NCBI GenBank assembly: GCA_030037495.1
Contig: JASHRG010000038.1
Coordinates: 1 to 39,523 of the forward strand
DNA: 39,523 nucleotides
From: Microcaldota archaeon
GTDB taxonomy: Archaea; Micrarchaeota; Micrarchaeia; Micrarchaeales; Micrarchaeaceae
Reading direction: 5' to 3'
Part shown: positions 28,596 through 31,999 of the stretch, one piece after another
Numbering within the stretch: the first letter of the stretch is position 1
Layout of the letters: each line of letters begins with the position of its first letter
Notes under the pieces: model-generated
Told to the model about the DNA's origin: nothing
The model's input: the letters and a program-made list of their open reading frames with translations, nothing else
Database searches by the model: none
Translations under genes and position numbers: made by a program

Positions 28596-28838
28596 TTACT
28601 TGTTTACTCCCACTATTATCGTCTCGGAGACGCTCTTTACCCTGTCGTATTTCACGCTGTTCTTGGCAAGCTGCCCTGGGCTGTTCTGCGCCCTCACAAG
28701 GTCCTCCATCTTTGTAAGGAGAAGGTTTGCTATCGCGCCCTTCTCGAAGTCAAGTATTATGTCTTCTACCATCCCCACCATCTGCCCTGTGTTCGTGATT
28801 ATCTGCTTTCCGTAAAGCTCTGATATCAGCATAGTCAT
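28596..28838 (-). CDS. PRC-barrel domain protein
   Basis: An 80-residue single-domain PRC-barrel protein. MLISELYGKQIITNTGQMVGMVEDIILDFEKGAIANLLL is the typical beta-barrel opening, with the conserved G-x-x-I G-x-V-D-I-D-G pattern. Small stand-alone archaeal PRC-barrel proteins include the CdpB cell-division proteins and putative RNA-metabolism factors, so the function is open. GGTGACC precedes the ATG at 28838; a second ATG follows two codons later. It is the last gene of the histone-zinc ribbon-PRC transcript. Confidence 0.85.
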   Translation of the reverse strand: MTMLISELYGKQIITNTGQMVGMVEDIILDFEKGAIANLLLTKMEDLVRAQNSPGQLAKNSVKYDRVKSVSETIIVGVNK

Positions 28839-28846
28839 TTGGTCAC

Positions 28847-29401
28847 CTATTTAATACGCATTATCCTTTTGGATGCAAATATTCTTATTATATACTCCTT
28901 TAGTTCATCAACAAAGCCGGTCTTGTTTGAGTCCATGTAGCTCCTTTCCTCCTGTGAAAACAGGGATTCGTTTGTTTTTAGTAGGTGCTCAAGGTAGGCA
29001 TCAGAGAGGTAGTAGCTCCTTGTCTTGCAGCCGCTGCACACGTATATTGGCATTACTGGCACGTTGGGATCGTCCTTTAGGTCAATCACGCGCTCTAGCA
29101 ACATTGCGCCGCAGCCTGGGCACTTCTTCTTGAGCTTAACCTCCGTGTATTCTGTCCTTGTCGCCTTGTCTATGTTGACCGAATCCAGGTGCTTCTTCAA
29201 CAAGCCCTCTATCATGCTCTGCTTGTTTCCCTGGTTGTAGAGAAGATTCTGGAACAGGACAGCTCCATCCTTGTCAAAGATCGTTTCAAAGACGCCTACG
29301 CCAAACGGCTCCCAGAGCGCTATCCTCTCTTTCCCATCCTTAGAGTACTCTAGCTTAACCCTGCCATCGTCGCTCCTTGACAGCCTGGCATAATCTGGCA
29401 T
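28847..29401 (-). CDS. Zinc-ribbon protein downstream of histone, unknown function
   Basis: I do not recognise this 184-residue protein. The N-terminal half is a mixed alpha/beta region with DGKERIALWEPFGVGVFETIF. A zinc ribbon follows with Cys94-x2-Cys97 (KKCPGCGAMLLERVID) and Cys122-x2-Cys125 (YVCSGCKTRSY). The C-terminus is helical and ends in the basic RIFASKRIMRIK. The ATG overlaps the histone gene end closely: GGTGACTGAATG contains the histone stop. It probably works in transcription or chromatin, but this rests on neighbourhood alone. Confidence 0.68.
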   Translation of the reverse strand: MPDYARLSRSDDGRVKLEYSKDGKERIALWEPFGVGVFETIFDKDGAVLFQNLLYNQGNKQSMIEGLLKKHLDSVNIDKATRTEYTEVKLKKKCPGCGAMLLERVIDLKDDPNVPVMPIYVCSGCKTRSYYLSDAYLEHLLKTNESLFSQEERSYMDSNKTGFVDELKEYIIRIFASKRIMRIK

Positions 29402-29611
29402 TCAGTCACCGAATTTCATCCTGTAGTAATCCACATCTTCTCCAAGCACAGTGCTCCTTCCCTTTGCCTTTGCCCTTTTTACAGCATACTTTGCTATCGT
29501 TTTTGCCCTTCTCTCTAGCAGCTTTGCTATCGCGCTTGCGGCAGAGTTGCTTATCATTACGTTTGATCTTGCCCTTACCATCTTCTTTATGGCGTTGTTT
29601 GGTATTCCCAT
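29402..29611 (-). CDS. Archaeal histone
   Basis: A 69-residue histone-fold protein that wraps DNA as dimers and higher oligomers. The start IPNNAIKKMVRAR corresponds to helix 1; the long central helix (about 21-47) contains SAASAIAKLLERRAKTIAKY; then KGRSTVLGEDVDYY with Arg52-x-Thr54 and Asp59 gives the R-T pair and R-D clamp. There is no tail beyond a few residues. A candidate C/D box sRNA lies directly upstream, ending only a few bases before the ATG. It is co-transcribed with the zinc-ribbon and PRC-barrel genes. Confidence 0.93.
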   Translation of the reverse strand: MGIPNNAIKKMVRARSNVMISNSAASAIAKLLERRAKTIAKYAVKRAKAKGRSTVLGEDVDYYRMKFGD

Positions 29612-29616
29612 CTATA

Positions 29617-29671
29617 TCAGCACTCAAGATCCTCGTCACAGCAAAAGCTCAGCGTAGTGCATTATCATCAT
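29617..29671 (-). ncRNA. Candidate C/D box guide sRNA upstream of the histone gene
   Basis: On the minus strand the boxes occur in canonical order: C box ATGATGA (29671-29665), 12-nt spacer, D' box CTGA (29652-29649), 9-nt spacer, C' box GTGACGA (29639-29633, one change from consensus), 12-nt spacer, D box CTGA (29620-29617). Both guide spacers have the standard archaeal length of 12. Predicted targets would contain CGTAGTGCATTA (D' guide) and CACTCAAGATCC (D guide). The flanking terminal stem is weak. It lies in the 109-bp gap between mscL and the histone gene. Confidence 0.5.
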
Positions 29672-29720
29672 TTATTGTATATCCATTACAAGCAATAAAA
29701 AGCTTGTGCGTTTTCCATGA

Positions 29721-30190: not shown

Positions 30191-31999
30191 ATGGCAGTTA
30201 TAGAAGTGAAAGAGTCAAATTTTGAGGGAGAAGTGCTAAAGTCGAAGACACCTGTTGTAGTAGACATTTGGGCCACCTGGTGCGTAGCGCCAGACTCTAT
30301 TGTTCTCAAAAGTAAATATGAGTCCACTGCTGCTGATAAAATTTTAAAGAATGGAAACGTGCTTGCCTACGATGGCGGCAAGCTGAAAGAAGCAAAGGTC
30401 TTAGAAAGCAAGACTTCATCGAAAATGGGGCACTGCAAAAAGATAACCACAGTGGTGAATAGAAGCATTGAGGCTACAGATGACCATCTCTTTTACACTT
30501 CGGCTGGGTGGAAAAGAGCAGATAAATTGAACGCAGGGGATAAAGTTGCAGTATATCCTCTTTTTGACACTAGAAACCATGCAGAGCAAGAAACTAAAGG
30601 TAAAATAGTACTTAAAAATGCCGATATATCTAAATTTGGCGATGGTAAAATCAAGATTGAAGGTAGTTTGGCAGCTTTGAAAGAGCGCGGACTTCTTGGA
30701 TTAAAAACTGATAGCCGAAAGCTCAGTATAATCGCAAGGGTTGTGGGCCTACTTTTTTCAGATGGGTCATTATATAGACGGGCTTCGAACAATTATTGTT
30801 GTGCTGACTTTATCGTGGGTTCAAATGACGATGCTACAGAACTGATATCGGACCTAGCAGAATTAGGATTCCCTGCAGCTTACGCAAAAAAGCGAGATAA
30901 CCGGTTCAAGATTGGCGGCAGGGAGATACGGCTGAAATCTATTAGAGTAAGGCTCGTATCAACCCCGTTTTGGCTGTTGATGCGAGCGCTTGGCGTACCA
31001 AGCGGTAGAAAGACCGACTTGGATTATGAGATACCCTCTTGGCTGAGCAAGACCTCAAAGGCTATAAGGAAAGAATTTCTCTCTGGATATTTAGGAGGAG
31101 ATGGGGCTGTACTCTCCATTAGAGTAGTTGATAGGAAGGGACGCGGATCCTACAATAGTTCGGCTATAAATGACATAGAGTTTTACAAGAACGTGGATTT
31201 GGTCCAGTCTGGGCTACGTTTTGGCAATCAGCTTTCAAAAATGCTTGCTGAACATGGGGTTAAAATAAGGAAGGTATTTCGTGGCAATGATAGTTTCACC
31301 CGAAGCTATGGAGGGAGATCCACTAGCATACATGTATCTCTATCTAACTCTTTTGATTCCGTGTACGCCCTTGGTGCTATAGGTTATGCGTATTGCGCAC
31401 AGAAGCAACTGAGAAGCAGCTACGTTATGGAATTCCTGGCTAAGAAGTTAAACGAAAGGAAACTGTGGAAAGCCAAGTACCGGAGCGCGGTTAGCATGCT
31501 AAATCAAGGAACGGATAGGATGGAAATTGCGTCTATTTTGCAGGTAAGCCCTAGCACGGTTGAGGGTTGGAGAATGGGAAATAAGCCTACAATAAATTTC
31601 ACACATGACAGGTTTCCAACATGGCTCGAATCCGCAACCGCTGGGCTGCAAGATGGGCTTGTATGGGAGAGCGTTCAGAGTGTTAGCGAAACGCATTTAC
31701 CGGAAGTGCAGAGCTTAACCGTAGACAAGTACTCGAATTTCATCGCGAACGGGTTTTTGGTCCATAATTGTGGCCCGTGTCGCTTATTTAGCCCGATAAT
31801 CGACGAAGCATCGAAAGATTACGATGGTAAAGTGAAATTCGTAAAGATTGACGCTGATGAGAACCAGAGCATAGTCTCAAAGTACAATGTGATGAGCATT
31901 CCTACAACACTGCTTATCAAGGATGGAAAGGTAAGGGCAATGCAGGTGGGAGCAGTGCCGAAAGAGGCCCTGAAAAAGTGGATAGACAAGAACCTTTGA
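30191..31999 (+). CDS. trxA: Thioredoxin precursor interrupted at its active site by an intein
   Basis: Of 602 residues, the first 30 (ending VVVDIWATW) and last 76 (starting CGPCRLFSPI) form a standard 106-residue thioredoxin with active site W-CGPC, then VKIDADENQSIVSKYNVMSIPTTLLIKDGK with the conserved cis-Pro in SIPT. Everything between is an intein (30281-31768). Thioredoxin reduces disulfides of client proteins in the cytosol. Without protein splicing the active site cannot form, so redox activity depends on the intein. It diverges from mscL, and hisS follows on the same strand. Splicing is very likely given intact terminal residues. Confidence 0.95.
   Translation: MAVIEVKESNFEGEVLKSKTPVVVDIWATWCVAPDSIVLKSKYESTAADKILKNGNVLAYDGGKLKEAKVLESKTSSKMGHCKKITTVVNRSIEATDDHLFYTSAGWKRADKLNAGDKVAVYPLFDTRNHAEQETKGKIVLKNADISKFGDGKIKIEGSLAALKERGLLGLKTDSRKLSIIARVVGLLFSDGSLYRRASNNYCCADFIVGSNDDATELISDLAELGFPAAYAKKRDNRFKIGGREIRLKSIRVRLVSTPFWLLMRALGVPSGRKTDLDYEIPSWLSKTSKAIRKEFLSGYLGGDGAVLSIRVVDRKGRGSYNSSAINDIEFYKNVDLVQSGLRFGNQLSKMLAEHGVKIRKVFRGNDSFTRSYGGRSTSIHVSLSNSFDSVYALGAIGYAYCAQKQLRSSYVMEFLAKKLNERKLWKAKYRSAVSMLNQGTDRMEIASILQVSPSTVEGWRMGNKPTINFTHDRFPTWLESATAGLQDGLVWESVQSVSETHLPEVQSLTVDKYSNFIANGFLVHNCGPCRLFSPIIDEASKDYDGKVKFVKIDADENQSIVSKYNVMSIPTTLLIKDGKVRAMQVGAVPKEALKKWIDKNL
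30281..31768 (+). mobile_element. Intein with LAGLIDADG homing endonuclease and HTH, inserted in thioredoxin
   Basis: 496 residues (precursor 31-526). Splicing blocks: Cys31 with CVAPDSIVLKS (block A), T96-D-D-H99 (block B), SLTVDKYSNFIANGFLVHN (blocks F-G) ending His525-Asn526, then Cys527 as the +1 residue. The endonuclease part has two LAGLIDADG-type motifs, VVGLLFSDG (184-192, Asp191) and LSGYLGGDG (297-305, Asp304), both with the acidic metal ligand, so it may be active. A helix-turn-helix (about 437-466, MEIASILQVSPSTVEGWRMG) lies between the endonuclease and the C-terminal splicing block. Codons look more AT-rich than the flanking genes, consistent with lateral homing. Confidence 0.93.

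Follow-up and report, generated by a model that had tools for sequence, protein, structure and literature searches.

The histone gene of this archaeon is preceded by a segment with the look of a C/D box sRNA, which raises the question of whether the segment is a methylation guide, what it would guide, and why it should be fixed to the leader of a histone gene. In the window (the whole 39,523-nt stretch of DNA that was analysed), the minus strand reads ATGATGA-TAATGCACTACG-CTGA-GCTTTTGCT-GTGACGA-GGATCTTGAGTG-CTGA-TATAG-ATG. Boxes C, D′, C′ and D thus appear in order with two 12-nt guides, and box D is separated by a 5-nt gap (TATAG) from the ATG of a histone ORF at position 29611. This arrangement had been proposed in a sequence-only reading, and its coordinates and the five-base spacing proved exact. 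The features are as follows.

29617..29671, minus strand: C/D box guide sRNA, box C through box D, assigned from boxes, spacing and order-wide conservation
29665..29671, minus strand: box C, ATGATGA, by sequence; RTGATGA in 113/114 genomes of the order
29653..29664, minus strand: D′ guide TAATGCACTACG, 12 nt; target uncertain, top candidate a 9-bp match to 16S rRNA
29649..29652, minus strand: box D′, CTGA, by sequence; CTGA or CCGA in 113/114 genomes of the order
29633..29639, minus strand: box C′, GTGACGA, by sequence; RTGANGA in most relatives
29621..29632, minus strand: D guide GGATCTTGAGTG, 12 nt, complementary to tRNA-Leu(CAA) in the anticodon arm, position 5 pairing with C34
29617..29620, minus strand: box D, CTGA, by sequence
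29402..29611, minus strand: archaeal histone gene, 69 aa, ATG 5 nt past box D (Pfam PF00808, 2e-8)

The segment has the make-up of archaeal C/D guide sRNAs, namely terminal boxes C and D, internal boxes C′ and D′ and two guides of ~12 nt. The window has a single instance of this four-box architecture, and 400 first-order Markov simulations of the window gave none. A covariance search, suggested as a check in the sequence-only reading, recovered the same segment: snoPyro_CD was the top Rfam match in the region (29614–29675, minus strand, E = 3.3e-4), but its 31.8 bits fell below the gathering cut-off of 45. Archaeal C/D sRNAs are thinly covered by Rfam, so passing this cut-off is not a defining biological feature. 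Pairing of the flanks into a terminal stem was not above that of shuffles. Fibrillarin is encoded in the same genome (G000:C12:16629–17264, E 4.5e-77). Decisive support for the sRNA came from its conservation. In a DNA search of 60 relatives, conservation peaked precisely over the sRNA (query 54–112, 84–92% identity within the genus) and not over its flanks, and in 40 of 40 relatives inspected by eye the boxes were intact and followed by a histone-like ORF. Judging by its sequence and this conservation, the segment 29671–29617 is indeed the gene of an archaeal C/D box guide sRNA.

Candidate targets were sought in the SSU rRNA, the 23S rRNA (which begins 11 bases into its contig and seems short at 2,301 bases), 40 ARAGORN tRNA predictions and tRNA-Leu(CAA). 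The last was missed by ARAGORN, but BLAST with an intron-free tRNA as query recovered it. The T loop of this tRNA has, in most genomes of the order, a short insertion that folds as a small hairpin (L127, L111–L140), probably an intron at an unusual position, and its presence in most copies explains why ARAGORN misses them. The D guide forms 10 contiguous Watson–Crick pairs with tRNA-Leu(CAA) (G000:C35:7548–7618, L127) from A31 to C40, with position 41 adding one G–U pair, and C34, the wobble base, lies opposite the guide nucleotide five positions away from box D, as in the N+5 rule. This pairing, with C34 at N+5, holds in the window's genome as well as for 29 of 30 relatives whose tRNA had been fetched and whose guide was available. 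Of 5000 shuffled guides compared with SSU, LSU and tRNAs, 60 achieved ten perfect pairs across N+5. When G–U pairs were allowed, 102 of 1000 shuffles equalled the D-guide score by itself; the target call therefore rests on the perfect run together with its conservation. Against the SSU and the apparently short 23S rRNA, the D guide had no target better than chance. We thus predict, from guide–target complementarity, that the sRNA directs 2′-O-methylation at C34 of tRNA-Leu(CAA).

Such a guide has precedents. Box C/D RNAs for the first anticodon position of tRNA-Leu(CAA) were already reported in Pyrococcus (PMC7994747), and snoRNAdb, as cited in PMC7668247, lists C34 of P. furiosus tRNA-Leu(CAA) as a predicted target. 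The Pyrococcus sRNA (PMC7994747; snoRNAdb via PMC7668247) and the one in the window have in common the RNA class, the box set, the target tRNA and the target nucleotide. Mass spectrometry of P. furiosus, however, left the predicted C34 methylation undetected among the tRNAs analysed (PMC7668247), which counts against methylation of C34 as the explanation.

The D′ guide behaved differently from the D guide. It is conserved in the genus and in one sister genus only and is variable beyond. Its best candidate was SSU position 1025 (roughly E. coli G1051, by our own numbering) with 9 Watson–Crick pairs, a match reached by 342 of 5000 shuffles with perfect pairing and by 248 of 1000 with G–U pairs allowed. 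Since the SSU motif is conserved family-wide, whereas the guide is kept in two genera only, the pair offers no covariation test. By sequence comparison the D′ guide thus appears to have no convincing target, which agrees with the pattern described in a review, where tRNA-targeting sRNAs typically carry one target-less guide (PMC7994747). The sequence-only reading had anticipated a target in rRNA or tRNA. The tRNA part stood, with a 10-bp perfect match to tRNA-Leu(CAA) that reaches the 9–10 nt asked for there; for rRNA there is the 9-bp match of the D′ guide, equalled by 7–25% of shuffles. In Thermoplasmata, the tRNA-Leu(CAA) guide sRNA (L141–L220, e.g. L158, L162, L165, L167) has another, strongly conserved D′ guide, GAACGAACCCTTT, before CTGA.

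To follow the element across the phylum, we scanned 301 genomes for the core running from C′ through the guide to D, RTGANRNNGATCTTGAGTRCTGA; the reversed control gave no match. The core was present in 161 of the 301 genomes. Exact copies were found in 144/164 genomes of the window's order (two families), where the D guide core is GATCTTGAGT, and in 17/137 Micrarchaeota genomes outside it. Histone ORFs were recognised by a profile made from the window's histone and its relatives. In all 114 order genomes examined, such an ORF lay immediately 3′ of box D on the same strand, which bore out the proposed placement in a histone leader as well as the expected conservation of the boxes, and this context is kept across 54 genera. 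Among the 109 order genomes with an assigned start, the histone start codon lay 4–5 nt past box D in 61 and 1–5 nt past it in 76, with a full range of 1–55 nt. Outside the order the association disappears: 13 Micrarchaeota of other orders that have the sRNA showed no adjoining histone, and in the scan of the genome collection none of the core-bearing loci of Thermococcus, Thermoplasmata, Heimdallarchaeota, Diapherotrites and others lay beside a histone gene. In the Thermococcus loci the guide core is identical (GATCTTGAGT) but the D′ guide differs.

The genomes of the order without an exact core were of several kinds. G168, G185 and G186 hold a diverged sRNA at the same place. Five others (G010, G050, G184, G199 and G202) had no histone match either, which is consistent with assembly gaps. 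In G185 and G186, which belong to one genus (L353, L351), the guide reads GATCTTTAGT, with G changed to T at the C34-pairing nucleotide (N+5), although the tRNA retains C34; all four boxes and the histone linkage are intact despite the altered guide. In G034 (L349, L138), the histone leader has no recognisable sRNA, and tRNA-Leu(CAA) has A37 instead of G37. A guide adapted to this tRNA would read GATTTTGAGT, and it is possible that the sRNA was lost or relocated together with the change in its target. The altered guide of G185 and G186 and the absence of the sRNA from G034 represent natural tests of the function of the element, and both count against the reading favoured below. A second, different histone gene is present in some order genomes, as at L358 (G174) and L361 (G185), and has no sRNA in front of it, so the linkage concerns one histone gene.

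Because the order genomes share ancestry, the 114 cases are not 114 independent events, and the linkage may have arisen in a single event and been kept thereafter. Selection is favoured by the fact that, over the same time, the genes upstream, the second guide and the distance to the start codon did not stay the same. The neighbourhood of the sRNA and the histone gene comprises three further features.

29694..29702, minus strand: TATA box CTTTTTATT, putative promoter of the sRNA–histone operon, by sequence and order-wide position
28847..29401, minus strand: operon gene for a protein of 184 aa that has CxxC pairs but matches no Pfam family; a homologue lies within 500 nt downstream on the same strand in 53/54 relatives with enough downstream sequence
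28596..28838, minus strand: operon gene for a PRC-barrel protein (Pfam PF05239), downstream in the genus relatives listed

The TATA-like CTTTTTATT is followed by about 22 nt and then box C. In 88 order genomes, the TATA centre lay 25.9 ± 2.35 nt upstream of box C, as opposed to 87 ± 12 nt from the histone start. When 102 order genomes were aligned on box C, the TATA box spanned –31 to –24, its positions –29 to –25 being 96–100% A/T, and position –33 was A-rich, as would suit a BRE. The TATA box is thus fixed to box C and not to the histone start, suggesting that transcription should begin at the 5′ end of the sRNA. It was seen only upstream of the sRNA, and a second promoter for the histone alone has no room: to give a leaderless histone transcript, its TATA box would have to sit within the C′/guide segment, which is not A/T-rich. 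The sRNA and the histone therefore probably arise from one promoter, as far as can be read from the DNA.

The sequence-only reading had considered mscL as a possible source of this transcript. That proposal failed, as none of the 53 relatives with sufficient sequence on that side had mscL upstream, the strand of the upstream gene was random among relatives (28 to 24), and the TATA box stands between at a fixed distance. On the downstream side the gene order is kept, the PRC-barrel gene coming after the CxxC gene in the genus relatives listed. Turnover of the upstream neighbours and conservation of the downstream genes indicate that the sRNA is the head of the histone operon and not the tail of an mscL transcript. 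We infer a conserved operon of sRNA, histone, Zn-ribbon and PRC-barrel genes with the sRNA at its head.

These observations led us to favour, with a probability of about 0.72, a reading in which the guide sRNA for C34 of tRNA-Leu(CAA) would form the first segment of the primary transcript of the histone operon and be excised as an sRNP. The TATA box ~26 nt upstream of box C would start transcription at or just before the 5′ end of the sRNA, and RNA polymerase would continue through the histone, CxxC protein and PRC-barrel genes. L7Ae, Nop5 and fibrillarin would assemble on the boxes and thereby protect the sRNA, while trimming or cleavage just beyond box D would free the sRNP. The remaining histone mRNA would be nearly leaderless, with a 5′ leader of a few nucleotides, and presumably translatable. 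The D guide would then direct fibrillarin to 2′-O-methylate C34. With one promoter, the supply of sRNA and the supply of histone would be tied. Maturation with the boxes alone is known for C/D sRNAs (PMC7994747), as is co-transcription with neighbours or hijacking of their promoters (PMC7994747, PMC5539422). In reporter tests, however, a 5′ overlap reduced expression of the downstream gene (PMC7994747), which counts against a single transcript serving both products. Such overlaps are also rare (7%) and variable according to Tripp et al. 2017, as relayed in PMC7994747, and given their rarity and their cost to the downstream gene, fixation throughout an order is unexpected.

The strongest competitor is promoter hijacking without functional coupling, to which we give only slightly less than an even chance: a real tRNA-Leu(CAA) guide would have come to lie behind a strong histone promoter and remained because relocation would cost its expression, with the histone gene tolerating it. 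The majority of archaeal C/D sRNAs lie next to ORFs or overlap them, and are served by the ORF promoters (PMC7994747, PMC5539422), and outside the order the same sRNA sits in other contexts. In the summary of Tripp et al. 2017 given in PMC7994747, the 5′-overlapping, promoter-hijacking C/D sRNAs likewise abut the 5′ end of an ORF, share its promoter and have the start codon just past box D. The contexts of C/D sRNAs have been reported to vary, though, whereas here a single context has persisted over 54 genera despite turnover of the D′ guide and of the genes upstream, and the TATA box is in register with the sRNA, not with the histone. Order-wide fixation, this register and a partner gene that is always the same set the locus apart from the overlaps as they are portrayed there. 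In sequence, selection on the coupling itself and selection only against loss of the promoter would look alike.

A second alternative, which we consider doubtful, is that the folded sRNA has an additional role in cis: as a k-turn leader bound by L7Ae, it would repress histone translation until the sRNP is cut off, so that histone output senses the supply of L7Ae or sRNP. L7Ae does repress translation through k-turns in 5′ leaders (PMC5539422), and the known k-turn leaders (PMC5539422, PMC6298567) likewise place a k-turn-forming C/D motif near the start codon, a proximity matched by the 76 genomes with a start 1–5 nt past box D. Retention of all boxes in G185 and G186, where the guide is altered at the catalytic position, also fits a role in cis. 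The known leaders, however, control L7Ae or Nop5/fibrillarin and do not amount to full guide sRNAs, whereas here a predicted full guide sRNA precedes a histone gene. Moreover, the distance from box D to the start codon varies up to 55 nt, and the target in trans already explains conservation of the guide. It likewise seems unlikely, although conceivable, that one transcript yields the wobble-methylation guide and the histone while the leader sRNP controls histone translation, thereby co-regulating the decoding of UUG leucine codons and the supply of chromatin protein. That the element is only a histone-leader motif and no methylation guide, as its constant place at the histone within the order might suggest, is highly improbable, since the guide core matches tRNA-Leu(CAA) and occurs with full C/D boxes at non-histone loci in other archaea.

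What is new under the favoured reading, in which the guide heads the histone operon, is the order-wide coupling of sRNA and histone; the guide and its target were already known. A literature search of open-licence papers returned no published C/D sRNA in a histone leader, and, as far as we could find, fixation of a tRNA-Leu(CAA) guide to a histone gene throughout an order is unreported. Archaeal C/D sRNA genes have been described as mobile and fast evolving, and 5′ overlaps as rare and harmful to the downstream gene. A guide and a histone gene that stay fused while their neighbours and the second guide change thus make a clear natural setting in which to ask whether mRNAs are regulated by the guide RNAs they carry. 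The arrangement would also account for expression of a tRNA guide in a reduced DPANN genome, and the combination of sRNA and histone provides a sequence handle for annotating guide RNAs in hundreds of Micrarchaeota genomes.

Elsewhere in the window, a thioredoxin gene on the plus strand (30191–31999) contains an intein inserted just ahead of the first Cys in its WCGPC active site, as recognised by the Pfam thioredoxin and intein splicing domains.
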